A stretch of DNA of 26,347 nucleotides, taken from a virus. The notes below the pieces were generated by a model. The model saw only the letters and a program-made list of their open reading frames with translations, was not told the origin of the DNA and ran no database searches. Made by a program: the position numbers and the translations under genes. The stretch spans positions 1 through 26,347 of the IMG/VR virus record IMGVR_UViG_3300007765_000043; one strand, written 5' to 3'. Below, piece by piece: positions 523 to 26,325 of the stretch; position 1 is the stretch's first letter; each line of letters starts with the position of its first letter.

Positions 523-531
523 TTCTACTCC

Positions 532-1746
532 TTAATAATCCATAATTTTTAATGTGCCGGCACCTGTTAGTGTCCATGTTTTTCCTGCATCAACCTCAAT
601 TGGGCCATACAACCAAGCTCTTTCATTAGCATTAATATTAAAAACAGCGTTATCACTAACATTAGTCCAATGCTTGAATACATTACCTACTGTTTCGATC
701 GAGCCAATAGTACCAGTAAGTGTATTTTCATTAACAGCAGTACCTGATGTTCCACCGGTACCACCTACATATAAGTCTCCAACTAGATATATATTTTTAC
801 TAGAATCGCCATATAACCATTGATCTGTTCCTGAGGTGCCATTAGCAATAACTAAAGTATTAGAGTTGCTTTCCTCATATCCAGCTCTATATCCTATAAA
901 TATATTTCCAGTACCTGCAGTTCCTGCAGATAAACCTGCTTCGTATCCTAATGCGGTATTATTAGAACCTACAGTATTACTATATAATGCTTTATATCCA
1001 ACTACATTATTTCCAGTACCTGTAGTATTAGAAGCTAAAGATAGATATCCTACAGCTACTACGCCAGTTTGATTATAGGAATTAATTGCTGCTCCTGCAC
1101 CAATTGCTACAGACTCTCCAACAGTTCCAGCAGTACTACTTCTTAGAGCAGTACTACCAATTGCCGTATTTTCTAACCCGCTTAAATATTTTGCAGCTGA
1201 TAGACCTACAGCAGTATTATTTCTTATAAAATCGGTATTTTCAGATAGAGCATCACTACCAATAGCTACATTATATTGTCCAGCAGTAGAATTAGTTAAA
1301 GTTCTTGTACCTATAGCAACATTATTATTATTGTTATCTACTAAAGAGAATAAAGATCTATTACCTATTGCAATATTATTATATCCGGAGGTTCCTGCTG
1401 ACATAGCTTCGAAACCTACAGCTACATTATAATTTCCTGTAACATTACTATAAGCCGCTTTATATCCTATTGCTACATTAGATATTCCATCAGTTAAAGA
1501 AGTAAGTGCTTCATAACCTACGGCAGTATTTTTTAAACCTAAAGCAGTATTAGAGGCGAGGGCATTATAACCTAAAGCAGTAATATATGGTGCAGTATTT
1601 GGAGATGTTATTATATCTGCTAATTTAGAAGTAGCTATTCCTGCTGTACCATTTACATGGGCATTAGTAATAACACCATCTGCAATTTCAATATCTCTAA
1701 TTACATCAGGTGCTCCACTATATCCTAAATAAGTTAAATAAGCCAT
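532..1746 (-). CDS. Tail fibre-like protein with YadA-head-like repeats
   Basis: The product has 404 residues. Residues 1-55 form a small N-terminal domain (GAPDVIRDIEIADGVITNA), probably for attachment to another virion part. Residues about 57-300 hold more than ten degenerate repeats built on NxAxGYxAL and N(T/V)(A/V)(V/I)G, the pattern of left-handed beta-roll heads in trimeric adhesins. The last 70 residues contain NERAWLYGPIEVDAGKTW, a C-terminal domain I have seen described on marine phage fibres, ending KIMDY. No enzymatic motif is visible. It lies between a small beta-sandwich protein and a second repeat fibre, in a run of tightly packed genes; the ATG follows the stop of the previous gene by one base, with a weak AGAGA ribosome binding site. 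The fibre role is firm by repeat type and context; which receptor it binds is unknown. Confidence 0.75.
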   Translation of the reverse strand: MAYLTYLGYSGAPDVIRDIEIADGVITNAHVNGTAGIATSKLADIITSPNTAPYITALGYNALASNTALGLKNTAVGYEALTSLTDGISNVAIGYKAAYSNVTGNYNVAVGFEAMSAGTSGYNNIAIGNRSLFSLVDNNNNNVAIGTRTLTNSTAGQYNVAIGSDALSENTDFIRNNTAVGLSAAKYLSGLENTAIGSTALRSSTAGTVGESVAIGAGAAINSYNQTGVVAVGYLSLASNTTGTGNNVVGYKALYSNTVGSNNTALGYEAGLSAGTAGTGNIFIGYRAGYEESNSNTLVIANGTSGTDQWLYGDSSKNIYLVGDLYVGGTGGTSGTAVNENTLTGTIGSIETVGNVFKHWTNVSDNAVFNINANERAWLYGPIEVDAGKTWTLTGAGTLKIMDY

Positions 1747-1747
1747 A

Positions 1748-2098
1748 CTATGTAATCTCTAAAATACTTGCGAAAGCTTCTACACTATTATTAGTACTAG
1801 CTTTGATTTTTAATTCATCTGATGCTGCTAAATTAATAGGTTTATCTAAAATTAAAGTTCCTTTATATGGAACTTCTACATCATTTGCAATATATACTGG
1901 ATCTGCAGCACTTCCTCCTGTCGGAGCATTAGCACCAGTTACAGTTACGTCAACATTAACACTAGTACCTGTAGTACCAGTATTACTAATATAAACGGCA
2001 TGAATAACAGAACCTACAGTACCACTAGTAGAGCATTGATATAATCTAGTACTAGTGGAACTAACCGCTACGGATGCATTAGTAAATGTATTTGCCAT
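1748..2098 (-). CDS. Small beta-sandwich virion protein
   Basis: This 116-residue protein starts MANTFTNASVAVSSTSTRLY and ends NSVEAFASILEIT. It is almost entirely predicted beta strand with short Gly/Thr/Ser loops, and it carries two copies of the GTxG loop motif (STSGTVGS and NTGTTGTSV). The layout (SVAV, VIHAVYISN, SVNVDVTVTG, KGTLILDKPINLAASDELKI) matches a small protein that I recognise from fibre modules of marine phages, where no function is assigned. The ribosome binding site is a perfect AGGAGG, formed by the last codons of the upstream gene (Leu-Gly-Gly-stop). Its place among fibre genes suggests a structural adaptor or decoration of the tail tip. Function is otherwise unknown. Confidence 0.65.
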   Translation of the reverse strand: MANTFTNASVAVSSTSTRLYQCSTSGTVGSVIHAVYISNTGTTGTSVNVDVTVTGANAPTGGSAADPVYIANDVEVPYKGTLILDKPINLAASDELKIKASTNNSVEAFASILEIT

Positions 2099-2099
2099 T

Positions 2100-2432
2100 T
2101 TAACCTCCTAAAGCTATAGCCATTGCTATAGATTGATCATCCACCCATGTAGCATTGGTGCCGTCATTTGATAAAAGTTTTCCAGTAGATGCTGTATTAA
2201 TTGTAGGTAGTGTCCCTGCTGCTGCAGAAACATCTATTACAGTATCGAACCAACTACCGCCTCCAGCTGTACAAGCTGATGCTGTCGTATATGATGCATT
2301 AGTACAATAAGCTCTACGAGCATATAGTACACCATCACCCGTATTAAAAGCTAACTCACCTAAGTCTAGATTCCCTGTTGTAGGAGTTCTACCTTGTATT
2401 GCGCTTCTTTTTAAAGTAATACTTTGAGCCAT
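2100..2432 (-). CDS. Short fibre or adaptor protein with GELA N-terminal domain and Cys loop
   Basis: The product has 110 residues. Its N-terminus (ITLKRSAIQG, then GNLDLGELAFNTGDGVLYAR) is the same type of domain as the start of the 894-residue fibre encoded just upstream (IQIKRSSGNNAPSTLSRGELAY), a domain related to the N-terminal module of phage tropism and fibre proteins. Immediately after it comes a paired-Cys module (CTNASYTTASACTAGGGSW, residues about 43-61) that also occurs in the head-tail connector of this phage. The tail (STGKLLSNDGTNATWVDD) resembles the linkers that precede repeats in longer fibres, so the protein looks like a fibre reduced to its attachment domain. The start has a TAGGAT ribosome binding site. 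It may be an adaptor or a remnant of a longer fibre. Confidence 0.65.
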   Translation of the reverse strand: MAQSITLKRSAIQGRTPTTGNLDLGELAFNTGDGVLYARRAYCTNASYTTASACTAGGGSWFDTVIDVSAAAGTLPTINTASTGKLLSNDGTNATWVDDQSIAMAIALGG

Positions 2433-2449
2433 ATTGTAATCCTATAAAT

Positions 2450-2479
2450 ATAGCTGGGTAGACTTATCTACCCAGCTAT
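2450..2479 (-). terminator. Strong hairpin between fibre genes, possible terminator or processing site
   Basis: A perfect inverted repeat (TAGCTGGGTAGA and its complement, 2451-2462 with 2467-2478, extendable by one A-T pair) encloses a four-base loop. It lies in the 55-bp gap after the 894-residue fibre gene. On the minus strand it is followed by TATTTATAG, a poor U-tract. On the plus strand it is followed by TTCTTTTATTT, a better one. It may be a leaky terminator, a transcript-end stabiliser, or a barrier to antisense transcription. Confidence 0.6.
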
Positions 2480-2487
2480 TCTTTTAT

Positions 2488-5172
2488 TTAATAATAACCA
2501 CCATCAATACTATTAGTCCAAGTAGGTACTCCAGAAGAATTCACTGAAAGAATTTCTCCCATACCGTTAGTACCTGAAGTACCATGTGTAGACCCATCCC
2601 ATTGACCTGCTGCTGTAATACCTAAAGGATCAGTTCCATTTCCATATACTAAACCATTAGTACCTACAGAACCTACTCCCATACCACCACTTGCTACTCC
2701 CATTGGAGTATTAGTAGATATAGCCCCTACATGAACAGTTCCCGAAGTACCTGTACCTATAGTTAAGGTATTATTACCTACTGTATCAAATAAGGTTACA
2801 TTACCTGCTACATGAACATCGAAATCATTGGCATATAATCCATTAGCTACCATATCAGCTAATGCAAATCCACTAGTTCCGCCTGTAGTAGTATCTACTG
2901 TAGAAGCAGTATTTAGATCTTCCTGTGTATCTTTAAATAGATGGAATTTATTATCACTAGCATCTCTAATTAAACCAGCCCACATTGTAGAGGTACCTGC
3001 AGTACCTGCTGATCCATATCTACCTACAAAACCAATATCTAAAGTATCTGTAGTATTATTGCCCTTTGCTAGTTGTAATAAAGTGTCTTCTACTTGGATT
3101 TGACTAGTACTTACTGTAGTAGTATCTCCATTGATAGTAAGATCTCCTGTTACTACGAGATCATTACCCATTGTAACTGTAGAGGCTACATTACCAATAT
3201 TAATATCAATGCCGGTAGTACCAGTAGTACCAATATTAATAGATCTACCACCAGTGGAAGCATTATCTACTTGAATATCTAAAGCAATAGCTGAAGAACC
3301 GTTTGAACCTGATACAGAGAAATTAGAATCTGTAGCAGCATCTAAAGAGATTCCTCCTTGGGAATCTAGTGCCATGCCGTTGGTTCCGGCATCTATATCT
3401 ACTGAAGTACCATCTAAATCTAATAATGTAGTAGCATTTAAACCTACTGTGGCTGAAGTACCATATAGTTTATTGGCTTGAGAAATCTCAAGAATACCAT
3501 TAGTACCTTTAATTTGTCCAGAAGTTCCTGCCCAATTAATGGTTTCCCCATTAGTTAAAATAATATCGCCTTCAATATCTAAATTATTAGATACATTTAA
3601 GGTATTAGCAGTTATTCCTACTGTACCTGAAGTACTATTTGTAGAGATATTAATATCAGAAGGTGTAGAAACAGTTAAATCTCCGCCTCCTGCTGTACCT
3701 GCTTTAATATATTGATTAGAATTTGTCCAGTAAATATATTTCTGCTCGGCCATGAAGACGTCACCTTCGACGTCTAAATTACCACTAATATCTACTTCAT
3801 TTGCTGTAATATTTACTGTGCCCCCTGAAGAAGCATTTAAGTTAATAGCTTCATCAGCATTAACATTTACAGTATCTTCACCATCAATAGTTAGAGAAGT
3901 AGCATTACCTACGATACTAGAAGTGCCCGCGGTACCTCCTGCTCCATCATAGTTCCAGGAAACGGTTTTATTTACCGATAACTTAACATCGCCTTCTACA
4001 TCAATATCACCAGCAATAGCTGCAGTACCATTAGCACCTGTAATATTTACAATGCGAGCATCATTTGCTCCAGTACCTGTACCAATATTAATTTGAGCAT
4101 CCCCAGCCCCACTATTACTGGCTTCAACATCTATAGTTACTCCAGTAGCAGCCGCAGCTGTAACTGTTAAATTACTAGAATTTGCCGCATCTAATGATAA
4201 AGAATTTACAGTATCTATATCTAATCCATTACTTCCAAAACCTATAGTACCTTTAGTGCCTTGTATAAGTAATCCATCGCGTACAATTAATCCACCTGTT
4301 CCAGTTGTTGCATGTAAATTTAAATTACCTGCAGAAGAGTCTAGTGCGATATCTCCTGTTGCATCTACATCTAAAGAACTAAGATCCAAATCTGCGGTAC
4401 TGGCAGCTATATGAATTGGCATTGAATTTGTATCAATACCTACTGATCCACCTGTACTAGATAGCGAGAGTTGAATGGAATTTTGGGCGCCGATTGTTAC
4501 TTTACCTGTTGTACCACTAATAAAGTCTCCGGAATTACTCCACTGTACCTTTTTTCCATCAGCTACTTTAATGTAATCTGATATAGTATAGTTACCCGTT
4601 TGGTTTACATTTCCAGTATGAGTAATATTACCAGCAATTCCAACACTACCAGTTACATCTAGAGCAGTACCGTCGGCTCCAGAGGAATTACCTACAATTA
4701 CTAATTTACCGGCATCAGCGTCCCATTGAACGAAATCTACAAATGCTCCGGTAGTACCACCCCAAGCTTTGAAATCGTATACTGCTCCAGCAGTACCTGT
4801 TTCACCTAAAGTAATAGACTGTAAGAAATGAGAGGGTTGTTTATATACAATCCTTTCATTTGAGTTAGTAGTATCAAAATATAAATATTGATTTCCAGCA
4901 TTTGTACCACTACCTTCTCTAAATTCAAAGGCAGTTTGTAAATTATCTGGGAAATATATCTTATTCTGATCACTTAAGCCATTGAACTCGATCTTATTTG
5001 CTGTACCAAATTGGGTAGCAGCATTAGTTAAAATTGCAGTTACTGCAGCAGTTCCACTTCCTTTTCCTAGAAATAAACTATCAGAACCTTCTGCATACGC
5101 CAATTCGCCCCTAGATAATGTACTAGGTGCGTTATTACCTGAACTTCTTTTAATTTGAATAGTATTAGCCAT
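2488..5172 (-). CDS. Long tail fibre with GELAY N-terminal domain
   Basis: The product has 894 residues. Residues 1-45 (IKRSSGNNAPSTLSRGELAY, then DSLFLGKG) form the N-terminal domain common to marine myovirus and siphovirus fibres. Most of the rest is a long beta-rich shaft with repeated phrases such as GNLDVEGDV, NNLDIEGDI and GDIDVEGDV, as in parallel beta-helix or trimeric fibre shafts. Around residues 675-780 comes the segment GDLTINGDTTTVSTSQIQVE, then WAGLIRDASDNKFHLF, a module known from T4-like cyanophage fibres. The C-terminus (MGEILSVNSSGVPTWTNS, then IDGGYY) is also typical of that group. At least ten GTxG loop motifs are scattered through it. The ATG has an AAGGAAA site. This is most likely the main side or tip fibre; no depolymerase motif is visible. 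Confidence 0.8.
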   Translation of the reverse strand: MANTIQIKRSSGNNAPSTLSRGELAYAEGSDSLFLGKGSGTAAVTAILTNAATQFGTANKIEFNGLSDQNKIYFPDNLQTAFEFREGSGTNAGNQYLYFDTTNSNERIVYKQPSHFLQSITLGETGTAGAVYDFKAWGGTTGAFVDFVQWDADAGKLVIVGNSSGADGTALDVTGSVGIAGNITHTGNVNQTGNYTISDYIKVADGKKVQWSNSGDFISGTTGKVTIGAQNSIQLSLSSTGGSVGIDTNSMPIHIAASTADLDLSSLDVDATGDIALDSSAGNLNLHATTGTGGLIVRDGLLIQGTKGTIGFGSNGLDIDTVNSLSLDAANSSNLTVTAAAATGVTIDVEASNSGAGDAQINIGTGTGANDARIVNITGANGTAAIAGDIDVEGDVKLSVNKTVSWNYDGAGGTAGTSSIVGNATSLTIDGEDTVNVNADEAINLNASSGGTVNITANEVDISGNLDVEGDVFMAEQKYIYWTNSNQYIKAGTAGGGDLTVSTPSDINISTNSTSGTVGITANTLNVSNNLDIEGDIILTNGETINWAGTSGQIKGTNGILEISQANKLYGTSATVGLNATTLLDLDGTSVDIDAGTNGMALDSQGGISLDAATDSNFSVSGSNGSSAIALDIQVDNASTGGRSINIGTTGTTGIDINIGNVASTVTMGNDLVVTGDLTINGDTTTVSTSQIQVEDTLLQLAKGNNTTDTLDIGFVGRYGSAGTAGTSTMWAGLIRDASDNKFHLFKDTQEDLNTASTVDTTTGGTSGFALADMVANGLYANDFDVHVAGNVTLFDTVGNNTLTIGTGTSGTVHVGAISTNTPMGVASGGMGVGSVGTNGLVYGNGTDPLGITAAGQWDGSTHGTSGTNGMGEILSVNSSGVPTWTNSIDGGYY

Positions 5173-5189
5173 AATATTTTCCTTACTAA

Positions 5190-5236
5190 TACTTAATCTT
5201 ATTTAAGATTTATATAATAATCAGTAATAACTGATT
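5190..5236 (-). other. Two small inverted repeats in leader of long fibre gene
   Basis: The 64-bp gap upstream of the 894-residue fibre gene contains two 6-bp stems: AATCTT/AAGATT with a 4-base loop and AATCAG/CTGATT with a 6-base loop. They are AT-rich and lack a convincing U-tract, so they may be weak leader structures. I see no good promoter here. Confidence 0.3.
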
Positions 5237-5686
5237 TTACCAGAAGCCACCATCTAATATTAGATCGCCATATTCGCCTACGACTCCGGCTGTTGTTCCT
5301 TCCCCTATTTGATTAGCTAAAATTAATTCTTCCCAGCCTGCCGTACCTGAAGTACTAGTTATGGGGGATGTTCCTGATGTACCTGTAGTAGTTACTAAAG
5401 TACTATCTCTGTATACCATTATTCTATTATTAGTAGTATCGTACCATAGATCTCCTTCATCTAATCCGGCGGTACCGGCGGAAGGAGCTGTATCTTGCTG
5501 CCAATAATTATCTACAAGTTCTTCTAAAGCTCCTTGTAAATTTGTACTTGTTAAATATTTATAAGGAGTAAAGCCTACTGCTCTCGCAAAGCCTACTCCC
5601 GCTGTAGTCATTACTGTAGTTTCACTACCATCATTTTCTGAAACTGTTACAGTAATATAAGGTTCTGTTACTATAGTTACTGGCAT
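5237..5686 (-). CDS. Tail tip or fibre adaptor protein
   Basis: The product has 149 residues. The middle (STNLQGALEELVDNYWQQD, then LDEGDLWYDTTNNRIMVYRD) matches a motif seen in fibre and neck proteins of marine phages, in which a TNLQ-AL-EL helix precedes a GDLWYDT-N--L-VY strand pair. The N-terminus is beta-rich (VTIVTEPYITVTVS). The C-terminus DLILDGGFW resembles the IDGGYY end of the long fibre encoded downstream, suggesting a shared docking or trimer-closing tail. The Gly-Thr loop motif occurs twice close together (TTTGTSGTS and STSGTAGW). Its start overlaps the previous stop by one base (TAATG), so translation is probably coupled. A structural adaptor between tail tip and fibres is the best guess; no enzymatic motif is seen. 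Confidence 0.6.
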   Translation of the reverse strand: MPVTIVTEPYITVTVSENDGSETTVMTTAGVGFARAVGFTPYKYLTSTNLQGALEELVDNYWQQDTAPSAGTAGLDEGDLWYDTTNNRIMVYRDSTLVTTTGTSGTSPITSTSGTAGWEELILANQIGEGTTAGVVGEYGDLILDGGFW

Positions 5687-6039
5687 TACCTAGTTACCTC
5701 TGAGGATACCTTTACGGTTCCTTGTAATAATCTAAGGGTTGAATTACTTGTACCAGAAGTGCCATTAGTTAGCTCTACATCATATACATAAGTATATGCT
5801 GGATCTAAAGAACTAGTTTGAGTTTTTGTTAAGCCCATATTGAAAAGACCTGCTGTTGCACTAGTGATAGTACATGTAAAAGTTGCTGCAGGGCTGGAAT
5901 CATAATAAGATTTACGGATTTGAGACTCTACTGTCCAATTTGTTAAATCTAAATCTGTACCAACAGGTTGATCTACTTGACACTGTAAATCATAGTCTAC
6001 ACCTTGCTCAATAGTTAAGTTATGAATTCCTGCTGCCAT
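5686..6039 (-). CDS. Beta-sandwich tail protein, first gene of the fibre transcript
   Basis: The product is 117 residues when started at the ATG at 6039-6037. A frame can be read from a TTG at 6051, but that TTG-GAG is itself the GGAG ribosome binding site, so the ATG is the real start. The sequence pattern LTIEQGVDYDLQCQV, then LDLTNWTVESQIRKSYYD, YVYDVELTNGTSGTSN and LLQGTVKVSSEVTR belongs to a small beta-sandwich family that I know from marine phage tail-tip clusters. Its exact role is not established. GTSGTSNST lies where other members would have a short turn, so the Gly-Thr motif occupies a surface hairpin. The gene is the first downstream of a near-consensus promoter and is translationally coupled to the next gene by TAATG. 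Confidence 0.65.
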   Translation of the reverse strand: MAAGIHNLTIEQGVDYDLQCQVDQPVGTDLDLTNWTVESQIRKSYYDSSPAATFTCTITSATAGLFNMGLTKTQTSSLDPAYTYVYDVELTNGTSGTSNSTLRLLQGTVKVSSEVTR

Positions 6040-6060
6040 TTTATTCTCCAATTATATTAC

Positions 6061-6078
6061 TTGGAAAAATTTTTCCAA
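6061..6078. promoter_or_regulatory. Perfect 18-bp palindrome in the fibre leader
   Basis: TTGGAAAAA followed directly by TTTTTCCAA forms a perfect two-fold symmetric site in the leader, about 50-65 bases downstream of the predicted transcription start and 22 bp before the first ATG. It lacks a loop of normal size and a following U-tract, so it looks more like a binding site for a dimeric protein than a terminator. A short RNA stem is the alternative. Confidence 0.55.
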
Positions 6079-6133
6079 AGTTGTAGTACCATTCTTTTAG
6101 AAAACTATCTTAAAAATTCCTATTTATTCAGTA

Positions 6134-6162
6134 ATTATACCAAGATAGATTAAAAAAGTCAA
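6134..6162 (-). promoter_or_regulatory. Sigma70-type promoter of the fibre module
   Basis: On the minus strand, a -35 box TTGACT (6162-6157) and a -10 box TATAAT (6139-6134) are separated by exactly 17 bases. A TG one base before the -10 box gives an extended -10. Transcription would start near 6127, leaving a leader of about 90 bases before the first fibre-module ATG. This lies in one of the few intergenic gaps above 100 bp (6052-6182). Confidence 0.8.
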
Positions 6163-6182
6163 GGGTTATTTTTTTGATGGTC

Positions 6183-9100
6183 CTAATCTAAATTTCCTAA
6201 TTTTACTCTAATATTAGAACCTTCGTAAACACTAATAGTATCATCATTTATTTCTAGTCTAGAACCAGAAGTTGCACTTTTAATAGTAACTTTTCCTGTT
6301 TTAGATACTTGGAAAGGAGCACTAGTACTAGTACTATGTCCTACCCAAATTCTATTAGTAGAGTCTGAACCACTCAACTTCACTATATTATTACCTCCTC
6401 CAATAGTAATTTCTGAAGTTGCTGTAATTCTACTACCTAATAAAGTACCAGTAGCTATCATATCACCATCTATATAAAGAGTAGAAGTTACCCAACTAGA
6501 ACCATTATATCGTTTAGTAGTAGAGACTGAAACATCTGAAGTTTTATAAATAGTTACTACATCATCTTGTACTGCGGAACTACTAGGAGTAGCTCCATGT
6601 GCCGTTGAATCGGACCAAGCTCCTGTAGAAGTTCCTACTCTGTAAAAACCGGGGCCTCTTCCTCCTGAACTACCTGAGGAGCCTGAACTACCTGAGGAGC
6701 CTGAACTACCTGAGGAGCCTGAACTACCTGAGGAACCTGAACTACCTGAGGAGCCTGGAGTTCCTGAAGATCCAGAAGATCCAGAAGATCCTGTAGACCC
6801 ACTCATATTGATAAACCAATCAATACTAGAAATAGTACCACCGGCTCCAGTTACTACTTCTGCAAATACTGCATCATATTCTGTATCTTCTGAAAATGCT
6901 CCAGTGCCTGTTTTACTAAATTGTCCACTACCTAAATAAGTAGCAGCATAAGCTTTACTAACATTAGCATCAAAGTATACTACGGAAGTTCCTGCATTAG
7001 AAAAAGTTATATTACTTTGAGAAATGATAGAAGTCTGATAACCTCTGGGATGAATATAAGTGAAACTAGTAGGATTAAATATAATAGTATTTCCACTATA
7101 ACTTACATTAGAATTAGTTACTGAACCTCCAGAAGCTATAGATGTATCACTATAAAAAGGTACTGATTGGACATTAGAACCTCCGCTTAATTGAACTGCT
7201 CCCGATATATTTAAAGAAGAACCATCCCACTTAATGTAGTTAGAATTATCTCCAATATGTAATTTGAAAGGCTGACCTACCTGTTGCCCCATCCATATAC
7301 CATTGGCACCATGTCCATAGGAACCTTTAGCTCCTGTTCGGAAATACTGTGCAGAAGTTCCGGTAGTGCCATTTACATAAGATAAATTATAATTAGCTGC
7401 AGCAATAGTACCTGATACTATTGCTCCACTTGCTGTAAGAGTACCGGCGGTATCCCAAACTAAACCATTACTACCACTATTAGATCCTAAGTAACCACTT
7501 CCATCTGTTTTTATCCATAAAGTCTGTCCAGATACTCCTTTTGTAAAAGATTTAAATCCTGTAGAGTCCATTACTACACGACCACCTGTAGCTCCTGTAG
7601 AAGCTGTTTGGAAAGTAAGGCCTGTTATTAATCCTGAAGTTAGTTCTCCTACATTTGCAGTAATAGCAGATAATTCATTAGTATTAATTTGATCCGCTTC
7701 TACGGTTCCTGCATATACAACTCCTGCTCCTAAAGTTCCTGCAGTTACTAGACCTGCATCTAGGTTTCCTGCAATAGAACTATTAGTAATAAGAGCTCCT
7801 CTAGCTCCGTAGGAATTACCAGAAGATACTAAAGTATGTACAAAAGGATACCCATTGCCCCAAGTTCCCGTACTTCCATTAGTGCCATTCCACCAATTTT
7901 GTCCTGGAGTTCCTGTTATAGTATCTGTACCAGATTTGCCCGTAACTGTTATAGCACTAGAAAAAGTATTATCATCAGTTAAGGCTTTAATTGTAGCTCC
8001 TACAGGGATTAAATTAAAATCAATAGGATTAACATGAAATGAAGTACCAGTAGCATCATTAAAACTGGCAATATTAGACATTCCATATTCATATCCTATA
8101 CCTGCAGTTGATACACCACTTGAGTTTAATTTTAAACCGGAAGAAATGGAACTATTTCCATCTACATCATACCAGACTAATTTACCATAGTAAATAGAAC
8201 CGTCTATATCTATATCATGAATAGCTAAAGTAGTTCCTCTACTATAAGAACCTACCTTATTTGATACACTAGGTGTAAAATCATATCCGTTAGTACCTCC
8301 AGTATGTGAAGCTCCTATATTTCCTTTATGTATATGTAAATCTACTTTTACTAAATCTGGATCTGAAGGGTTCTCCCATTCGGCTATTACTTTATTAATA
8401 CCACCTTTAATGGCTCCATTACTACCGGAATTAGGCCCTACAGTATCACCAACTACAGCGGCTGCTAAATGTCTCCCATAGGAATACTGTGCACCCCAAG
8501 AATTAGCTCTAATTCTTGTAGTATATTCTGAGCCTGTCTGAACTGATGTAAGAGTTACTATAGAAGTACCTGAAGTTCCTTCATTATTTGGTATAGTTAT
8601 TACATTCCAGTCTATGTTCTTAAGAACTACTGAATGTGAAGAAGCCCAGATATTAACTAACTGTCTATCTATTTCTACTTGATTAGAACCTAACTTTGAA
8701 TTTACAAATACAGTTTCATTAACTGAAGAATTATGTATTTGGGAACCTACTTGAGTATTAGAATAAAAAGATACAGGTAAAGTAACTATACTAGCACCTG
8801 CAGTACTACTTGAGGATAAAGTTCCTGTATCCGCAGTACCATATGTACCTGTATTAGCGTATTTAACTAAGAAATCTCTACAGGCGGGTCCAGAAGCTTT
8901 ATCCCACTCCCATCCTACATTTAAATTATATTGATTATACAATCCAGTACTTTGAACTGTAGTATTATGTGTTATATTTGTTACGGGGGAAGGTTTTATA
9001 CTACTTTCACTAACTGTAATAGTATAATATCCTGCGGTTCCTGCAGTAGCAGCATTTCTCCAAATTTCCCAGTCAGAAACTTCTTTATTACCATCTCTTA

Positions 9101-9734
9101 AAAATACTTCACCCCTTACTCGAACAAAGTATGTACCATTTGGAAGACCAAATACAGGAATAGTACTATTAAATGTAGTATGCTGATTCTTAATTACAGT
9201 AGAAAATCCATTATCTACTGCAAACTCTGTTTCTAAATAAGTAGCATCGCCATTTAAATTTAGATTTAAATAAGTATAAGATATACCATAAGGTTCATTA
9301 TAATATAGAGATTCTACACCATTATCAGTAGCTCCAATATTAATATGAGGAGGAGTTTTCATACTTACAGATTGGCCTGAAGTACCTCCTCCAATATTTA
9401 AATCTAAACCTATCTTTCTAATACTATCGTCGCCAAACTCATCTAATCCTGCCCATTTAATATAGAATGAAGTTCCTGCTGTTCCTGCAGTAGTAACTAT
9501 ACCTCCATAAGTACCTGATAATTTGGTTACTCCGTCACCTAAATTAGTATCTATTAAATATTTACCAGAAGAACCTGCAGAAGCAACATTAGTAATAGCT
9601 GATGAGTCTATCCAAGCAATTAAGCCATAAGGATCATAATCATTTAAAACATCATGCCATAGAGTTATGGAACTATATCCTGCATCAAATTCATTAATAT
9701 TTACCGAAGAAGGTGCTGTATTTTTTATACTCAT
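6183..9734 (-). CDS. Tail tip or central fibre protein with collagen-like Gly-X-Y tract
   Basis: The product has 1183 residues. The first 600 residues are beta-rich with fibronectin-like segments, for example ITHNTTVQSTGLYNQYNLNV and later KVIAEWENPSDPDLVKVDLH. Residues about 660-720 (AGTLGAGVVYAGTVEADQIN, TANVGELTSG) resemble the shaft region of lambda J-like proteins, where interwoven trimers form. Residues about 980-1027 are a collagen-like tract of GSS triplets with one GTP. The C-terminal 150 residues (GPGFYRVGTSTG, then RITATSEITIGGGNNIVKLS, ending SNIRVKLGNLD) look like a distal trimeric domain. The ATG overlaps the stop of the hub gene (ATGA), so the two are probably made together. 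It may form the central tip fibre extending from the hub; receptor binding is inferred. Confidence 0.7.
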   Translation of the reverse strand: MSIKNTAPSSVNINEFDAGYSSITLWHDVLNDYDPYGLIAWIDSSAITNVASAGSSGKYLIDTNLGDGVTKLSGTYGGIVTTAGTAGTSFYIKWAGLDEFGDDSIRKIGLDLNIGGGTSGQSVSMKTPPHINIGATDNGVESLYYNEPYGISYTYLNLNLNGDATYLETEFAVDNGFSTVIKNQHTTFNSTIPVFGLPNGTYFVRVRGEVFLRDGNKEVSDWEIWRNAATAGTAGYYTITVSESSIKPSPVTNITHNTTVQSTGLYNQYNLNVGWEWDKASGPACRDFLVKYANTGTYGTADTGTLSSSSTAGASIVTLPVSFYSNTQVGSQIHNSSVNETVFVNSKLGSNQVEIDRQLVNIWASSHSVVLKNIDWNVITIPNNEGTSGTSIVTLTSVQTGSEYTTRIRANSWGAQYSYGRHLAAAVVGDTVGPNSGSNGAIKGGINKVIAEWENPSDPDLVKVDLHIHKGNIGASHTGGTNGYDFTPSVSNKVGSYSRGTTLAIHDIDIDGSIYYGKLVWYDVDGNSSISSGLKLNSSGVSTAGIGYEYGMSNIASFNDATGTSFHVNPIDFNLIPVGATIKALTDDNTFSSAITVTGKSGTDTITGTPGQNWWNGTNGSTGTWGNGYPFVHTLVSSGNSYGARGALITNSSIAGNLDAGLVTAGTLGAGVVYAGTVEADQINTNELSAITANVGELTSGLITGLTFQTASTGATGGRVVMDSTGFKSFTKGVSGQTLWIKTDGSGYLGSNSGSNGLVWDTAGTLTASGAIVSGTIAAANYNLSYVNGTTGTSAQYFRTGAKGSYGHGANGIWMGQQVGQPFKLHIGDNSNYIKWDGSSLNISGAVQLSGGSNVQSVPFYSDTSIASGGSVTNSNVSYSGNTIIFNPTSFTYIHPRGYQTSIISQSNITFSNAGTSVVYFDANVSKAYAATYLGSGQFSKTGTGAFSEDTEYDAVFAEVVTGAGGTISSIDWFINMSGSTGSSGSSGSSGTPGSSGSSGSSGSSGSSGSSGSSGSSGSSGSSGGRGPGFYRVGTSTGAWSDSTAHGATPSSSAVQDDVVTIYKTSDVSVSTTKRYNGSSWVTSTLYIDGDMIATGTLLGSRITATSEITIGGGNNIVKLSGSDSTNRIWVGHSTSTSAPFQVSKTGKVTIKSATSGSRLEINDDTISVYEGSNIRVKLGNLD
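6666..6755. repeat. 18-bp tandem repeat, five copies, encoding Gly-Ser-Ser triplets
   Basis: Five head-to-tail copies of an 18-bp unit (plus strand TGAACTACCTGAGGAGCC, one copy with a single G-to-A change) encode GSSGSS units. A second short run, with GATCCAGAA in place of this unit, follows at about 6770-6792. Near-identity between copies implies recent expansion or ongoing slippage. Confidence 0.9.
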
Positions 9735-12700
9735 AGTTCTGCATAACTCCCGGATATTTGACTTGCTGGTCCTTGTGCCCAGACTCTAAATATGATATTA
9801 TTTCTATAAGCTCCTGTTGCTCCTGAATTAGCAGAAGCATAAGCCGTTTTATTATCCGCTAAAGGATAAGTAAACTTAATATTATTTCTCCCTGAGGTTC
9901 CTCCAGCCGCTCTATTAGTATAGTTTTGTGTAATTCCTCCAGGAGTTATTACTTGTACTTTATATCCAATACAATAAGCTTCAGGAGCTTTATCCCAAGT
10001 AATTATTGGATCACTACCTAAAAATTCTGAATTATCTCCTGATGCAGGATTTAATAGCTTTAAATTCTGCACTGTTGCCATTGCTGTAGCAGGATTTATT
10101 GTAGTAGATATGGTTACTTCATTACTAGTTAACCCAGCACTATTAACTGCTCTTACTCCAAATATATAAGAACCGGAGGGCAGATCTCTTACTTCATGAT
10201 ATAAAGTATCAACTGTTATATATCCATATACAGAGGGAGTAGACTCACCACTTTTAGTACCTACCCAAGTTATAGTATAATAGGATATATCAGAAGAACC
10301 TGAAGCATTCCAAGATAGAATACCTTGAATACCTACATATCCATCCCAAGTTTCTGCAGAAGCCCAAGCTCCTGTTTCATTATTAATAAAAGAGCCAGAA
10401 ATATCAAAAGTAGTAGAACTAGGAATATTTAGTATTTGTTTATTGTCTCCATTATAATTAGTACTACCTGTTATATTGATTTTCGATCCTACAATTCTAT
10501 TGTGGTTAGTAGAAGTTGTAACTCTTATTCTACCTCCTCCAGCATCAGCTATTGCAGATATTTGTCCCGATTGCTCACATAAAGTGCTTTGAGTATACTC
10601 TGTCTTTGCTGCCCAAAATCCTGAAGTAGCTGCTGTTCCTGACCAAGTTTTTGTTATATCAAAACCTCTAGTACCATTAATGGCATCTATTCCATAAGTA
10701 CCATTATAAGCAGATACAGAACTATTTGTAATAACAATATTCTGTCCAGAAATCCTATTATGATTATTAGCAGTAGTTACTGCGATTCGTCCAGAAACAC
10801 CAGAAGAAGCATAAGAACTAATAGTACCTGCTACAGAATCACAAGAACATATTCCTCCTCCTGATACAGCATTATATACTAAACTTGAAGGAGCTAGAGG
10901 GGCTGTACTATTGCCAGAACCTGTAGTAGAAGCAGTTGGATAACCACTAGAACCTGAAGTAGATATTCTATACATATCATCTGTATGCTCGGATGCAGTA
11001 ATATCTATAGTACAATCAGGATTTACAACTAATTGAGTAACTCTGAATAGCTTAGAACTCCAATCAAAAGAATCATAAGTAATATCAATAACTTCACCTA
11101 CCTGAGTATCTAAAGCTTGAGGAGTTGCTTTAAAATTAATTTGTACAGGATATCTAGATTTCTTTAACTCTTGTTCAATTCTGCCTCTGGCAGTATAATA
11201 ATTAGTTACCCCTGTTAGGCTAACTCTACCTATTTTCTGTTTATTATTGTCAGCAACTTTATAATCACTATTATAAAAAGTTATAGCTTTACCAGACCAT
11301 TTATTGGCTGGGTCAGATAAAGAAGTAGATATTGTATTCCATTTATCTTTATTACCTTGTTCTTTAACATTAATAGCTCCTATAATATTATCTATATTAA
11401 AGGAAAAGGTAGATCCTTCTTGAGTAGCAAGTTTTAAACTATACTGTCCTCCAGAAAATCTTAATATCCCATTAAATTGTTTTAATATACCATTAATATT
11501 TTCAAATAAGGACTTATCTGTTTCAATTGGCATATTAGTTTGATGCATATACCTATAGTTATTATTTTGGGAAGGCCATCCTAACCATTTCCAATAAGGT
11601 AACCAATTAGAATCATATGTATTATCTATAGTTTCGACTAGATTAGCTACGCCACCACAGTTTCCTGCCGTTCCTCCTGATCCACATGTACCTACAAAAC
11701 TACTAGCATCTATATTACCTATTTCAATATTTCTGCCATACCGTTTGCTTCTCATATAGTCAAGTAACTGTAAGGAAGGATTAATAGAAAATTCTCTAGT
11801 ATTATAAGCTCCTGTAGTTCCTGTACCCAAATAATTATAGGTTTGAACCTGCATTCCTTTAACTACAAAAGATAAGTCTGGAATATTATCATAACCACCT
11901 GCAGCGGAACCTATCTTAAATCTACATACAGCATAAGCTGTATCTAACATTTTAAACTCTGGACCCCAGTAGTCTCCTGCACAAGGTTGATTTCCACCTG
12001 TACCACAAGTACTACCATAACCTGCTTGATTTGTAAAACCCTGATATTCTTGAGTAACAAACCCAGGACTTATAGCAGTAGCGTATAAATCAGAAGAATA
12101 ACCTTGAGTTCCAGAAATTCCAGAACTAGAACTAGGACCATATCCTGTAAAGAATGTTAAATCAATTTTACCATCTAGTAAACTTACATGATCTTGATGT
12201 CCTAAATCTAAAGTACTTCCACTATCTGCTCTTCCTACACAACCTCCATCCTCTCCTCTGGCTTCTGCATCTGATTCATTTAAACAAATCATAGGCTGAC
12301 CATCTATATAAACATCTAATAAAGAGTGCACAGGGCCTTCACAAATTGCATATACTACCCATACATATGAACATCTATTATCTAGCTGTTCATTAAATAA
12401 TGCTACCGCACCTTGGTAAGATGCATCACCTATTGACCCACTAGGATAAGAGGCTCGTTCTGGGGCTACGGAGGAAGCATCCGCTTTTTGTAAATCAGCA
12501 AATACAGGAATACCTTCTACCTTCCTTACTCCGTATATTACAGGTAAGGACTTAGCAAAAGTATTCATATTGAGATCTACTGTATCATTTACCCATACAG
12601 TATAGTTAGATACTTTAGTTCTAAAACCAAACCAAGAAGACTTAACTCTTACTCGTTCTTCAGGTCTTTTAAACTGAGCTTCAAAATTAATAGCTCTATT

Positions 12701-13288
12701 AGCCCATTTAAAACCTTTATCATAGTAATAATCTGCATATAAACAGTTAGCTAATTCTGGGGATCCTGAAGTTCCAAACCCTCTATGTATCTCATCATCC
12801 GTTAAACGACCTGTTACCCTTTCAAAATCTGCCCAATGACTACTAATAGTCCAGGTTACTTTACTAGCTTTATAAGGGTCTTCAGATACTTTCGAAGCAG
12901 TAATTAAGCCTCTAAATAACTCGAATGGATTATCAGTAGACGAGACAATACTACCCGTAGAATCTATAAAAACTTTATAAATAGTTACTTCTCTATTTAT
13001 AAAGTTATTATCTAAAGGCCCTATATTTAAAGGTCTGCGTACTTCGTCTATTATTTCGCCAGGTAAGGCTATAGATATGGTATGAGCTGCGGCTTTACTA
13101 GTCTCGGTGATTTGAGATACGCTTAGTAATTTGCCTGCTACATATGTGTTACTACTCCACATAATATCGTGGGCAGCATCTGTCCAATAAAGAAAAGCTC
13201 CAGTTGGTAACTCGAATTTTACTAAATGAGCATATATAAGATTTCTATTTCCTAAATGTGATTTTAGTGCTGTGGATAGTCTTCCCAT
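9731..13288 (-). CDS. Tail hub and tip attachment protein, J-like
   Basis: The product has 1185 residues. The N-terminal part (NRNLIYAHLVKFELPTGAFL, FELFRGLITASKVSED) resembles the baseplate-hub domain found in lambda-like and gene-transfer-agent tails. The middle (QEGSTFSFNIDNIIGAINVK, ARGRIEQELKKSRYPVQINF, GEVIDITYDSFDWSSKLFRV) matches the pattern of phage tip attachment proteins. Residues about 819-982 hold two copies of a beta module with the signature NHNRIxGxxIxIT followed by YNG. Two fibronectin type III-like domains follow (ISYYTITWVG and VRAVNSAGLTSNE; then IITWDKAPEAYCIGYKVQVI). Several Cys pairs occur in insertions, for example near residues 540-555. The ATG has an AAGGCAG site. 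It lies after the distal-tail candidate, as expected for the hub. Confidence 0.8.
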   Translation of the reverse strand: MGRLSTALKSHLGNRNLIYAHLVKFELPTGAFLYWTDAAHDIMWSSNTYVAGKLLSVSQITETSKAAAHTISIALPGEIIDEVRRPLNIGPLDNNFINREVTIYKVFIDSTGSIVSSTDNPFELFRGLITASKVSEDPYKASKVTWTISSHWADFERVTGRLTDDEIHRGFGTSGSPELANCLYADYYYDKGFKWANRAINFEAQFKRPEERVRVKSSWFGFRTKVSNYTVWVNDTVDLNMNTFAKSLPVIYGVRKVEGIPVFADLQKADASSVAPERASYPSGSIGDASYQGAVALFNEQLDNRCSYVWVVYAICEGPVHSLLDVYIDGQPMICLNESDAEARGEDGGCVGRADSGSTLDLGHQDHVSLLDGKIDLTFFTGYGPSSSSGISGTQGYSSDLYATAISPGFVTQEYQGFTNQAGYGSTCGTGGNQPCAGDYWGPEFKMLDTAYAVCRFKIGSAAGGYDNIPDLSFVVKGMQVQTYNYLGTGTTGAYNTREFSINPSLQLLDYMRSKRYGRNIEIGNIDASSFVGTCGSGGTAGNCGGVANLVETIDNTYDSNWLPYWKWLGWPSQNNNYRYMHQTNMPIETDKSLFENINGILKQFNGILRFSGGQYSLKLATQEGSTFSFNIDNIIGAINVKEQGNKDKWNTISTSLSDPANKWSGKAITFYNSDYKVADNNKQKIGRVSLTGVTNYYTARGRIEQELKKSRYPVQINFKATPQALDTQVGEVIDITYDSFDWSSKLFRVTQLVVNPDCTIDITASEHTDDMYRISTSGSSGYPTASTTGSGNSTAPLAPSSLVYNAVSGGGICSCDSVAGTISSYASSGVSGRIAVTTANNHNRISGQNIVITNSSVSAYNGTYGIDAINGTRGFDITKTWSGTAATSGFWAAKTEYTQSTLCEQSGQISAIADAGGGRIRVTTSTNHNRIVGSKINITGSTNYNGDNKQILNIPSSTTFDISGSFINNETGAWASAETWDGYVGIQGILSWNASGSSDISYYTITWVGTKSGESTPSVYGYITVDTLYHEVRDLPSGSYIFGVRAVNSAGLTSNEVTISTTINPATAMATVQNLKLLNPASGDNSEFLGSDPIITWDKAPEAYCIGYKVQVITPGGITQNYTNRAAGGTSGRNNIKFTYPLADNKTAYASANSGATGAYRNNIIFRVWAQGPASQISGSYAEL
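10343..10830. repeat. Duplicated YNG beta module within the tail hub gene
   Basis: Two adjacent segments of about 230 bp each encode related modules. The first runs from GTISSYASSGVSGRIAVTT to SGFWAA. The second runs from SGQISAIADAGGGRIRVTT to the TWDGYVG region. They share I-S, G-RI-VTT, NHNRI-G, I-IT-S, YNG and FDI in the same order. The DNA has diverged, so the duplication is old. Boundaries are approximate. Confidence 0.7.
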
Positions 13289-19770: not shown

Positions 19771-21186
19771 CTAGGAAGCGCAACCAGCTGATCCCGCAGT
19801 AGATGTTGTCTGTGCAACATATCGTACAGATAACTCTCGTGGATCACTGACATCAGTAATAGCTTTACCATATCCAGCGGTTCCACCTACATAACCCTGA
19901 GCTTTAAAGTCAATAGATACACCGACTACATCACTAATTTCAGTAGTAGGAATATTTAATTGAGCGTTTGTTACAGCAAAAGCAACATAAGGAGCTGTTG
20001 TACCACCCATATTTAAGTTCATACCAAAATGATTAGAAATATCTGTAGAAGCACCTGCTAAATCTGCTAATAGTTGCTCGGATCCATCAGTACCTGAATT
20101 AAGGTATGCTGTTAAGTTTCCTGTAATAGAACGAGAACCGGTAAAGGAACCGATAGGTGAATCAACTGTTGCTAAGTTATCTGGAGTGATATAAGTAATA
20201 TTATTATTATAAGTAATAGTACCACCTGTAATAGCTAAAGTATAATCTTTATCCGTTTCTGTGAAGGAATTAGGTGCAGTAGATACACCGGCGGTTGATC
20301 CATTAGTACCTCCTTGAGCTCTACCCCAAGCACGTAAATTAAGAGTACTTAACTTATTACGAATATAATCAGCTGCTGCGGGTACTTCACGAGCTCCGCA
20401 GTTACCTTGAACACCCCAAGTACCTCCACCAAGTAAACCAGTAGTTCCACCTGCAGTACCACAAGTACCAGAAGTAAGACTAGTACGTACTGGAATTGGG
20501 CAACCTCCTAGAGTTCCATCAATAAAGGTTCTTCCGAATCCAGACCATGTAATTTGAGCAATACCATCGATACTAAAGTCAACTTCTGCCTGGTTAATCT
20601 GACAGCCTGTCATCTTATATGTAACATCTCCAATTACGAAGTACATATTTAATTTAATTAATTCGTGCGCATTACTTACACCTGCACATACACACATACC
20701 CTCAGATCCTAAAGCACCTGCTTGATCTGATCCAGTACAAGTACCTGAATAACGAATAGCAGCAGTACCAGAAGTACCACGCCAAATACAAGTCTGTCTA
20801 GCGGATACTGCATTAGAGGCGGTTAAAGAAGCCCATAAAACTTTATCTACAGAATCATATACATTATCTCCAAAAGCACGTCCACCACCTGCACCAACAC
20901 TAACTCCTGAAGTACCACCAGTTGCTGCGGTTCCTACATTTGTTTGATAATAAGGGCGAACATAAGTAGTAAATGAAAACTCTGCCGGAGCTAAAGAGGT
21001 ATTATAAACGACGGATCCACGTTGTGGAGTTGCTCCTGATTCATTCAAAGTAATTTCTTGAGTTTCATTACCTTGTGAAAATGAGAAGCCATCTTGAATG
21101 GGGATTTCCCATGTATTATTAATACTATGATCACTTTCTACAGTACTAATATATAATCGAGCATTTCTCGAAAGTTGAAAAGCCAT
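19771..21186 (-). CDS. Major tail tube protein
   Basis: The product has 471 residues when started at the ATG at 21186-21184, which follows GGAG by six bases. The frame also runs back to a TTG at 21198, but that TTG lies on the ribosome binding site itself. The N-terminal strands (FQLSRNARLYISTV, GFSFSQGNETQEITLNESG) and the later parts (CQINQAEVDFSIDGIAQITW, NITYITPDNLATVDSPIGSF, GVSIDFKAQGYVG) fit a tube fold made of beta barrels. It is longer than most tube proteins because of loops rich in Gly, Thr and paired Cys (SGTCTGSDQAG, MCVCAG, SGTCGTAGG, GNCGAR). Codon use leans to CGT and other codons of highly expressed genes, as in the capsid half of the fusion, consistent with a major virion subunit. 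Confidence 0.8.
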   Translation of the reverse strand: MAFQLSRNARLYISTVESDHSINNTWEIPIQDGFSFSQGNETQEITLNESGATPQRGSVVYNTSLAPAEFSFTTYVRPYYQTNVGTAATGGTSGVSVGAGGGRAFGDNVYDSVDKVLWASLTASNAVSARQTCIWRGTSGTAAIRYSGTCTGSDQAGALGSEGMCVCAGVSNAHELIKLNMYFVIGDVTYKMTGCQINQAEVDFSIDGIAQITWSGFGRTFIDGTLGGCPIPVRTSLTSGTCGTAGGTTGLLGGGTWGVQGNCGAREVPAAADYIRNKLSTLNLRAWGRAQGGTNGSTAGVSTAPNSFTETDKDYTLAITGGTITYNNNITYITPDNLATVDSPIGSFTGSRSITGNLTAYLNSGTDGSEQLLADLAGASTDISNHFGMNLNMGGTTAPYVAFAVTNAQLNIPTTEISDVVGVSIDFKAQGYVGGTAGYGKAITDVSDPRELSVRYVAQTTSTAGSAGCAS

Positions 21187-21208
21187 ATTTTTCTCCAAAA
21201 ATATACTT

Positions 21209-23990: not shown

Positions 23991-24020
23991 ATAAAAACAG
24001 GCTGGACCGAAGTCCAGCCA
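23991..24020 (-). terminator. Rho-independent terminator with UUCG loop after the capsid gene
   Basis: On the minus strand, an 8-bp perfect stem (GGCTGGAC pairing with GTCCAGCC, 24019-24000) encloses the ultra-stable loop TTCG closed by C-G, followed by TGTTTTTAT. It begins 23 bases after the capsid stop codon. It fits partial termination after the most abundant gene, with read-through to the connector. Confidence 0.85.
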
Positions 24021-24042: not shown

Positions 24043-26010
24043 TTAATAAGTACCTAATTTAACACCGCCGCTATATACTTCCTTGAGACCAAGGCGAGTA
24101 GTAGCTACGATAGTACGACGCTGACGTTCAACACTGTACTCACTATCTACCTTCATGCCACGTTGCATTGGCTTCAAGAAGTCACGAGTATTGAGTGCGA
24201 AGCCCCAAGCGTTACCTGCAGCATGTGCTGACTTAAATGCCTTACTAACTACGACCTTAGAACCATAAATGGAACCAACTTCACCTGTTAGTTTAGTTGC
24301 ATTAGATGCAGTAACTAAATTAGCATCCTGCCACTCTGGATCAGCCAGTAAATCATACCATGCATCCTTAGAAACAATATAGATAAGATCACTTGGATTC
24401 AGACCACGAACGCCCATTGCAGAACGCATAGCTAATAAGTTACCAGAACCAACAGTACCTGTAGTACCTACACTTGCTCCAGTAACACCGGTTCCTGCTT
24501 TACGGAACAGATCGTCAAAGTTAGTAGTAGGACCGCCATGAGTTGCAGTATCTGCACCACTAAATGCATATTCAATAGAATTACCTAAAGAACGGACCAG
24601 ATTAGCACGGATGATTGGAAGAATTGGAAGGATTGCATCTTCCTCAGCTTCATCATTCAAGTATGCCTTACCTGCCAACTTATAGGTGCGCAGAGTAGTA
24701 GAAGTAAGTTGAGTACTTTGCTCACTACCGGTAGAAGTAAGTGCACCACCAGCACCATTAGTAGCACCAAGGCGAGTTGAGGAATCTACCCAAGTAGCAT
24801 ACCCACCCTCAGGAACCTTAGGAATTACCATAGTCTGAGCATTCAGCTGAATCTCAGGAATAAGATTAGCAATTACTAACTCCTCTTGTACATCACGATA
24901 CAGATTAGTCTGTACCTGAGTTTCATACTCTGTAGTACTTGCAGAAGTTGGAATAAGAGCTCCATCTTGATTCTTCTCTAAGAGTAATGCCTTGCCGAAA
25001 TCAGTATCATCGATACGACGAGATAAAGCCTTAGATAAGAAGTATGCCTTCTCATAATCATCATAAGCAAGCTTTTCTTCACGATCACTACGATCAGCAA
25101 AAGTCATCTTGCTAGTACGCATAGCTTCGATCTCTTCGGCCTTAGCTTTTAATTCATCTTGTAAAGAACCAATAACAGTAGTCATATCTTCTTGCTTATC
25201 AAGAATACGCTTCTCTACATCTTGTACGAGCTTCTCAGCTCCTGTTAAACCTGCTTCAATAATAGCTTGCTTTTCAGCTTCTGAAGCAGCTGACTTCTCA
25301 GCAACATCCTTAGCAGCCTTTTCTTTAGCAGCTTCGGCTTCAGCAGTTTTCATAGCAATGCTAGTAGCAGTCTTTTCTGCGACTGAAGCCGCAAACTTTT
25401 GTAAATCTTCTGGTGTCATATTTAACTCCGTCTCTATTTCATCCTTATCGGATTCCATTACTTTTTCTTCCAATACTTCAGTAGCGTCTGCTTCTTTAGT
25501 ATCTTCAGTAGTAAATTCTTTTTTAAATTTCTCGTATTCTATGGTATCTTCAAAAGACTTAGCTATAGAAAATAGAGAATCCTGATTAGCCGGAACTGAA
25601 ACTACTGAAATTTCGTGTAGTTCTAAATCCGAAATTTTGAAGACATCAGATGCTGTATCATAATCTGCGTCTTTAACTTGAAAACCCACTGAGAATGCTC
25701 TCAGAATGCCTTCTTTAACCATATCATATACTTTACCAGCTGCTTTAGTAACAGTTGCATATACTTTTAGTCCATTTGCATCTACCGTTGTTTCTGTTAC
25801 TTTACCTATTGGTTGGCTATAATCATGGTTGAACAGGACAATAGGGTTCTTTAGATAATTATTTAATCCGCCTTTTGTCCATGCTTCTTCTGTGATAACA
25901 TCACCCACTCTATCTACAGAAGTAGTATTAGCGTAACCAGAAATCTTAATCCCAGTTTCATCTTCTTCTATAGATTTAATGCTTGATGTTATATGAAAAA
26001 GTTTATTCAT
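24043..26010 (-). CDS. Fused prohead protease, scaffold and HK97-type major capsid protein
   Basis: The product has 655 residues in one frame. Residues 1-150 are an HK97-family prohead protease: NPIVLFNHD with His62, LRAFSVGF with Ser107 and LELHEISVVSVP with Glu133 are the expected catalytic positions. Residues about 200-300 are a charged, alanine-rich coiled coil like the HK97 delta (scaffold) domain. From about residue 300 the HK97 capsid fold follows (DGALIPTSASTTEYETQVQ, MVIPKVPEGGYATWVDSS, AMGVRGLNPSDLIYIVSKDA). The start at 26010 has AGGAG overlapping the stop of the gene before. Arg codons change from AGA-rich in the protease to CGT/CGC in the capsid part. The capsid may also be started separately at Met198 (458 residues). 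In many phages these are two genes. Confidence 0.9.
   Translation of the reverse strand: MNKLFHITSSIKSIEEDETGIKISGYANTTSVDRVGDVITEEAWTKGGLNNYLKNPIVLFNHDYSQPIGKVTETTVDANGLKVYATVTKAAGKVYDMVKEGILRAFSVGFQVKDADYDTASDVFKISDLELHEISVVSVPANQDSLFSIAKSFEDTIEYEKFKKEFTTEDTKEADATEVLEEKVMESDKDEIETELNMTPEDLQKFAASVAEKTATSIAMKTAEAEAAKEKAAKDVAEKSAASEAEKQAIIEAGLTGAEKLVQDVEKRILDKQEDMTTVIGSLQDELKAKAEEIEAMRTSKMTFADRSDREEKLAYDDYEKAYFLSKALSRRIDDTDFGKALLLEKNQDGALIPTSASTTEYETQVQTNLYRDVQEELVIANLIPEIQLNAQTMVIPKVPEGGYATWVDSSTRLGATNGAGGALTSTGSEQSTQLTSTTLRTYKLAGKAYLNDEAEEDAILPILPIIRANLVRSLGNSIEYAFSGADTATHGGPTTNFDDLFRKAGTGVTGASVGTTGTVGSGNLLAMRSAMGVRGLNPSDLIYIVSKDAWYDLLADPEWQDANLVTASNATKLTGEVGSIYGSKVVVSKAFKSAHAAGNAWGFALNTRDFLKPMQRGMKVDSEYSVERQRRTIVATTRLGLKEVYSGGVKLGTY
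25417..25430 (-). promoter_or_regulatory. Internal ribosome binding site and ATG for separate capsid synthesis
   Basis: Within the fusion frame, GACGGAG is followed after TTAAAT by an in-frame ATG (25419-25417, Met198), a better spaced start signal than at many of the genes here. It lies between the protease and the coiled-coil scaffold. The same GACGGAG occurs before the first gene of the window at 26325. Confidence 0.6.
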
Positions 26011-26019
26011 TATAATCTC

Positions 26020-26325
26020 CTACAGTAAAGCATCTTCATCGGCTTTTGCTGCATCTGCCATCGCTTGCGCAAGTTTAGATTTTGCTGGAGCCTTTTTTGC
26101 TTCTGCTTTTACTTCGACAGCCTCCTTAATGGAAGGATTATTATCAAAAGATAATTTTCCTTTCATATAATTTGCCATTATATTATAGTTTCCGAACCAC
26201 TTTCTAATAGAATCTAATCTTACAGGAGCATTACGTCCTTCTAATTTATATTCATCTATACTAAGGATTCGTCCTTTTGCTTTAAAAAATCTTATTAAAA
26301 ACTTTATAGTTTGTGATCTACCCAT
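26020..26325 (-). CDS. Small protein with a repeat like those of HNH homing endonucleases
   Basis: The product has 101 residues. Residues 17-55 (KGRILSIDEYKLEG, then APVRLDSIRKWFGNYNIMAN) fit the pattern of the homing-endonuclease-associated DNA-binding repeat: G-R-x-S-x-x-E-Y, then a short stretch ending P-x-R-x-x-x-I-x-x-x-F-G-x-[YW]-N. A catalytic nuclease domain is absent. The C-terminal 40 residues are a Lys/Ala/Glu-rich tail. It lies directly upstream of the protease-capsid fusion, where the portal would normally be close. It could be a DNA-binding head or packaging accessory factor or a remnant of a mobile nuclease. The ATG has GACGGAG upstream, and an in-frame TGA three bases before it fixes the start. 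Function is not established. Confidence 0.45.
   Translation of the reverse strand: MGRSQTIKFLIRFFKAKGRILSIDEYKLEGRNAPVRLDSIRKWFGNYNIMANYMKGKLSFDNNPSIKEAVEVKAEAKKAPAKSKLAQAMADAAKADEDALL

Follow-up and report, generated by a model that had tools for sequence, protein, structure and literature searches.

It is known only in part how phages load each prohead with the proper number of maturation proteases, and one viral locus raises this question within a single gene. The stretch analysed, positions 1–26 347 of IMG/VR record IMGVR_UViG_3300007765_000043 (hereafter the window), carries an open frame of 655 residues in which protease and capsid domains form one chain. Does such a gene yield one product or two? 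Judging from comparative sequence analysis, we give a probability of roughly 0.83 to a nested two-product head gene, encoding a protease–delta–capsid fusion and a plain delta–capsid precursor. The features on which the argument turns are as follows.

26017–26020, minus strand: Shine–Dalgarno (SD) sequence GGAG of the fusion start, read from the sequence.
26008–26010, minus strand: ATG at which the fusion begins (upstream start), with GGAG 6 nt before it.
24043–26010, minus strand: protease–delta–capsid fusion frame, 655 aa (open frame and domains; L001, another IMG/VR contig, carries identical DNA).
25552–25974, minus strand: S78 prohead protease domain, residues 13–153 (PF04586; His62, Ser107 and Glu130 identical in all aligned family members).
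25420–25551, minus strand: variable linker, residues 154–197, stop-free and in frame in 41 of 41 clusters.
25426–25429, minus strand: internal SD GGAG, 6 nt before Met198 (sequence and conservation).
25417–25419, minus strand: predicted internal start codon ATG (Met198), at the alignment position where separate T5-like capsid genes begin.
24043–25419, minus strand: internal frame, a 458-aa capsid precursor homologous to the T5 pb8 precursor (PDB chains 8ho3, 8zvi and 5tjt, E 3e-98 to 3e-82).
24979–25419, minus strand: delta (scaffold) coiled-coil region, residues 198 to approximately 344 (T5 alignment; helices in a low-confidence model).
24046–24978, minus strand: mature HK97-fold capsid protein, residues approximately 345–655 (PF05065, matches to solved chains, T5 alignment).
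24000–24019, minus strand: terminator-like hairpin with a T run, 3' of the capsid stop, from a pattern match.

The initial annotation had described the frame as prohead protease, scaffold and HK97 capsid, and this composition was confirmed. Indeed, profile searches placed Peptidase_S78 (PF04586) at residues 13–153 (E = 4e-22) and Phage_capsid (PF05065) at residues 364–654, and the capsid part matches solved chains of the T5/DT57C type (best E 3e-98). In the protease domain, His62 and Ser107, which we take to be the catalytic residues of the S78 prohead protease, are invariant across an alignment of 14 diverse members. An AlphaFold2 model of the fusion, built from 14 sequences, was poor (mean pLDDT 53) and displayed helices in the delta region. 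The GGAG reported six bases before an in-frame ATG at the domain border is likewise in place, the strand reading GGAG-TTAAAT-ATG from 25429 to 25417 up to and including the Met198 codon. The upstream start, which had been overlooked, has an identical layout of GGAG, 6 nt and ATG. Directly 3' of the capsid stop codon, the gene strand carries the hairpin GGCTGGACTTCGGTCCAGCC followed by TGTTTTT (24000–24019); an Rfam search gave no match.

A sequencing or assembly error was considered as the cause of the fusion and is ruled out by the second contig, identical to the window over 4517 bases, and by more than 100 other distinct fused sequences. A profile search of IMG/VR with the capsid part as sole query retrieved approximately 50 environmental loci with protease and capsid in one frame; every ‘separate’ case was T5-like, and outside the T5-like clade all loci that extended far enough upstream were fused. 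A wider search yielded at least 586 relatives, although its query, the full fusion, favours fused loci, and a GTDB search added contigs from metagenome-assembled genomes (MAGs), several of them from marine Gammaproteobacteria. The resulting fused set comprises at least 143 loci and at least 121 distinct proteins from metaviromes and MAGs, falling into at least 41 junction clusters. Among the matches listed, no complete locus outside the T5 clade has a stop or frameshift between the two domains. The lone environmental member that appeared split (L177) proved to be an artefact of a run of Ns in its capsid part. As a separate observation, one subclade (L015–L031) opens the fusion with GTG or TTG, its internal start remaining ATG.

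The nearest named phages are T5-likes, whose proteases are 43–47% and capsids 32–33% identical to those of the window. In the five T5-like phages examined, protease and capsid are two genes, 2–17 nt apart and always in different frames, and Met198 aligns with the start methionine of the separate capsid gene. The internal frame of 458 aa has exactly the length of the T5 pb8 precursor, of which the first 160 residues are cleaved (PMC11313276), so that both head modules include a pb8-homologous precursor with an N-terminal scaffold of approximately 160 aa. Residue 160 of the T5-like protein, the mature N terminus in T5, maps to approximately residue 345 of the window protein; accordingly, the delta region would be expected to be removed by the protease through a cut near this position. 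In T5, prohead I is built from 775 copies of pb8, the scaffold domain is cut by the protease pb11, and this protease is a protein with a gene of its own (PMC5292684). The gene order protease–capsid–head completion–tail completion–tail terminator is also common to T5 and the window. The difference lies at the border, where T5-likes (Demerecviridae) have a stop between the genes, whereas the window has one frame with the capsid start inside it. In a tree of capsid sequences, the T5-likes whose genes are separate group together with full support, adjoining the fused lineages, and under midpoint rooting this clade falls inside the fused diversity. Depending on the root, either the T5 line split the gene or the lineages outside it fused two genes.

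An in-frame ATG at the border with GGAG, GAGG or AGGA 6–8 nt upstream was found in all 41 junction clusters among the matches listed: GGAG with a spacing of precisely 6 nt in 33 clusters, and AGGA with a spacing of 7–8 nt in eight. Related phages without a border SD and ATG, which the initial annotation had named as counter-evidence, were thus not encountered among these clusters. By comparison, 2.5% of equal-sized stretches elsewhere in the same genes carry a start with SD, as do 27 of the 563 other in-frame methionine codons. Since picking the most favourable ATG around the border biases the count upwards, the scan was repeated over every alignment column, and the 41 clusters again fell on a single column (with a tolerance of six columns). 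The bases upstream are constrained beyond the protein that they encode: the third base of codon −4 is G in 32 of 32 testable cases (8.6 expected, p ≈ 1e-20) and codon −3 is GAG in 33 of 41 clusters (10.7 expected, p ≈ 5e-13), p-values that overstate the independence of related lineages, though too little to alter the conclusion. The residue at codon −4 differs by lineage (T, Q, K, M, E or R) and all of its codons end in G, which indicates that selection acts on the RNA. RNA structure is also slightly weaker at the internal start than elsewhere (p = 0.008). This conserved ribosome-binding site almost certainly lets ribosomes make the capsid alone besides the fusion.

Codon use changes along the same frame. 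Arginine codons of the AGR and CGN types number 0 and 20 in the capsid part, against 2 and 0 in the protease part. The usual arginine codons of this phage are AGA and AGG (AGR : CGN of 49 : 10 in the tape measure gene, 38 : 6 and 18 : 4 in other tail genes), and the sole other clearly CGN-rich gene of some length is that of the major tail protein (19771–21198; 4 : 13). The capsid and the major tail protein, presumably the most abundant proteins of the virion, thus have special codons, and for the capsid the change occurs inside one open frame. Lysine and isoleucine carry the shift as much as arginine does: AAA : AAG passes from 15 : 4 in the protease part to 6 : 26 in the capsid part, and ATA from 6 of 14 isoleucine codons to 0 of 21. 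The change in codon use that had been proposed at the border is therefore real as a shift (G = 98.6, versus a maximum of 82.1 in 1000 synonymous shuffles), and reaches z > 2 at the border in 17 of the 19 lineages tested. It is not sharp at Met198: the break is broad, from approximately codon 198 to codon 300, with the best split at codon 259 and codon 198 nearly equal, and the ‘AGA-rich’ protease part amounts to two arginine codons. The internal capsid start that the initial annotation had proposed is strongly supported by the start and SD in 41 of 41 clusters, the homology to the T5 capsid start, the 458-aa length, the synonymous constraint and the codons of the capsid part.

Is the fusion itself retained, or is it a by-product of the missing stop codon? 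As no stop lies at the border, a ribosome making the protease continues into the capsid, and each protease is expected as a fusion. Linker length takes 19 values in the 38 members measured and preserves the frame every time, and a stop is a single change away for approximately 12 of the last 30 linker codons. Both observations indicate that the fusion product is kept too, since a useless read-through would be expected to gain a stop in some lineage; something thus seems to hold the join open. The ratio of the two products is less directly accessible. Predicted SD energies in the window are −7.3 kcal/mol upstream and −6.1 kcal/mol at the internal start, and the family is mixed: in many members the upstream SD equals or exceeds the internal one in strength, with no systematic difference between the two starts. 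SD strength was consequently dropped as a proof of ‘few fusions’, and it gives no grounds for expecting plain capsid in excess. The part of the initial annotation that predicted few fusions among many capsids receives only indirect support, from codon use and T5 stoichiometry, and finds no difference in SD strength to build on.

A coherent scheme can be proposed from these elements. Ribosomes starting at 26010 would make the protease–delta–capsid fusion, and those starting at 25419 the plain 458-aa delta–capsid precursor, equivalent to T5 pb8. The plain precursor, presumably in excess, would form most of the prohead shell, and the fusion would co-assemble into the same shell through its capsid and delta parts, bringing the protease inside. 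The enclosed protease would then trim the delta domains near residue 345 and probably cut its own linker as well, releasing itself. Loading of the protease into the prohead would thus be covalent. In a fused gene with two starts, translation would determine the dose of protease and the enzyme would be anchored in the shell, an arrangement reminiscent of retroviruses, in which a few Gag-Pol accompany many Gag.

Other accounts of the locus have to be weighed against this scheme. One holds that translation yields nothing but the full-length fusion, from which the protease frees the capsid through cuts at the border and between delta and capsid, and that the internal GGAG-ATG arose incidentally from a linker rich in charged residues. 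The frame is indeed open throughout, its upstream start has a good SD and the protease sits in the same chain. However, glutamate, lysine and glutamine can be encoded without the G that is invariably found at codon −4, and GAG at codon −3 is also far above expectation; in the Circum-type fusions described below, the residue at the site may be Met, Val or Leu, encoded by ATG, GTG or TTG; the two parts differ in codon use; and one protease per capsid subunit would be required. We therefore regard a fusion-only gene as very unlikely. Still less credible, in our opinion, is that the loss of a stop codon fused two genes and left the old capsid start behind as a relic, functional or not. The site does occupy the position at which the separate capsid gene begins in T5-likes, the nearest named phages, but a relic would be expected to decay, yet 41 clusters, many of them on long branches, keep both the ATG and the SD spacing, and the tree does not establish that separate genes came first.

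Two further accounts accept the internal start and differ on its context. Control could be exerted at the RNA level, if a capsid-only mRNA arose from a promoter, or through processing, within the protease part. A promoter-like pattern is present there on the gene strand (25684–25657), but such patterns number 15 against 10.6 in shuffled sequence (s.d. 3.0), and a capsid-only mRNA would still require the internal start and its SD, adding to internal initiation rather than replacing it; we consider this route quite unlikely. Alternatively, the internal start may be the only important source of capsid, with the fusion merely tolerated and the protease either released by itself at once or supplied by another gene. 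The separate T5 protease speaks for this account and, the window being a fragment, a separate protease gene may lie elsewhere in the genome. The absence of any stop or frameshift outside the T5 clade, the 19 linker lengths and the many near-stop codons speak against it, and we hold tolerated read-through to be unlikely, although less so than RNA-level control.

The two-product reading has precedents for each of its halves. Phage lambda C/Nu3 has an in-frame internal start in its head protease gene, giving a shorter C-terminal product (Shaw & Murialdo 1980, as cited in PMC8508860). The window resembles a C/Nu3-type nested pair in its conserved in-frame SD and start at a domain border, and differs in that its inner frame encodes scaffold and capsid rather than scaffold alone. 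In lambda, the inner frame supplies only scaffold, the capsid comes from another gene and the protease belongs to a different family from that of the window. Fused head genes are also on record. The Gifsy-2 capsid gene is, like the gene in the window, tripartite, with protease, scaffold and capsid in one frame by description (Effantin et al. 2010, as cited in PMC3121763). MD8-like phages have one gene with three domains, for which the passages of PMC8508860 examined mention no internal start; their protease is of the ClpP type (CLP_protease domain) instead of Peptidase_S78. HK97 gp4/gp5 is similar in that a delta domain is joined to the capsid, with an S78 protease directly upstream, but there protease and capsid are two unfused genes (PMC8508860). 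Genes for a ‘major capsid and protease fusion’ are described in Arthrobacter phages of clusters AM, AU and AN and in Rhodococcus phage RRH1 (PMC5513430). Like the window, these join an S78-type protease to an HK97-type capsid; they differ in showing no close sequence kinship to it, in having Gram-positive hosts and in being annotated as one product. The predicted nested head gene would join the two known arrangements, a fused head gene and an internal start in a protease gene, and its layout is maintained throughout a large clade of environmental, uncultured T5 relatives. A search of the open-access literature, a weak one as subscription papers lie mostly outside it, found no paper on an internal capsid start in a protease–capsid fusion.

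Four unrelated kinds of protease–capsid fusion also have a start with SD at the border. In the Circum-type group, start and SD fall on one column in nine of nine members (next best column, three of nine), and the start codon is ATG, GTG or TTG, which fits a start codon rather than a required residue; this is a strong pointer to internal initiation in that group. The site lies at residue 242 in Circum and on the same column in L189–L195 and L202, with GTG in Curtobacterium phage Pippin15 and TTG in Lactococcus phage 1706. The smaller groups give results that are suggestive of the same: one column holds the start and SD in four of six Decurro-type members (next best column, one) and in three of three ClpP-type members (next best column, two), and in PAJU2, whose record notes protease, scaffold and capsid genes in one frame, Met197 is preceded by AGGAGG. 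Individually, the border SD and ATG are found at codon 197 in PAJU2, 220 in MD8, 188 in mEp213 and 214 in RcBaka, the last two being relatives of MD8. We lean towards the view that protease–capsid fusions of tailed phages are generally nested two-product genes, making plain capsid and a set dose of protease-tagged capsid; this rule would probably extend to S78-type T5 relatives, Circum-type, Decurro-type, PAJU2 and ClpP-type MD8 phages. If so, hundreds of phage records, in which such a gene has a ‘major capsid and protease fusion protein’ as its sole product, would be wrong about the main product. The question is directly testable in cultured phages of the same layout, namely Arthrobacter Circum, Lactococcus 1706 and Pseudomonas PAJU2 and MD8.

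Two minor observations concern other reading frames of the window. An open frame of 158 aa (25109–25585) runs antisense to the delta region and is likely a by-product of codon use. The tail and fibre proteins (1–13288) are rich in repeats resembling GTSGTSG and TAGTSG, with a long SSGSSG run in 6183–9734.
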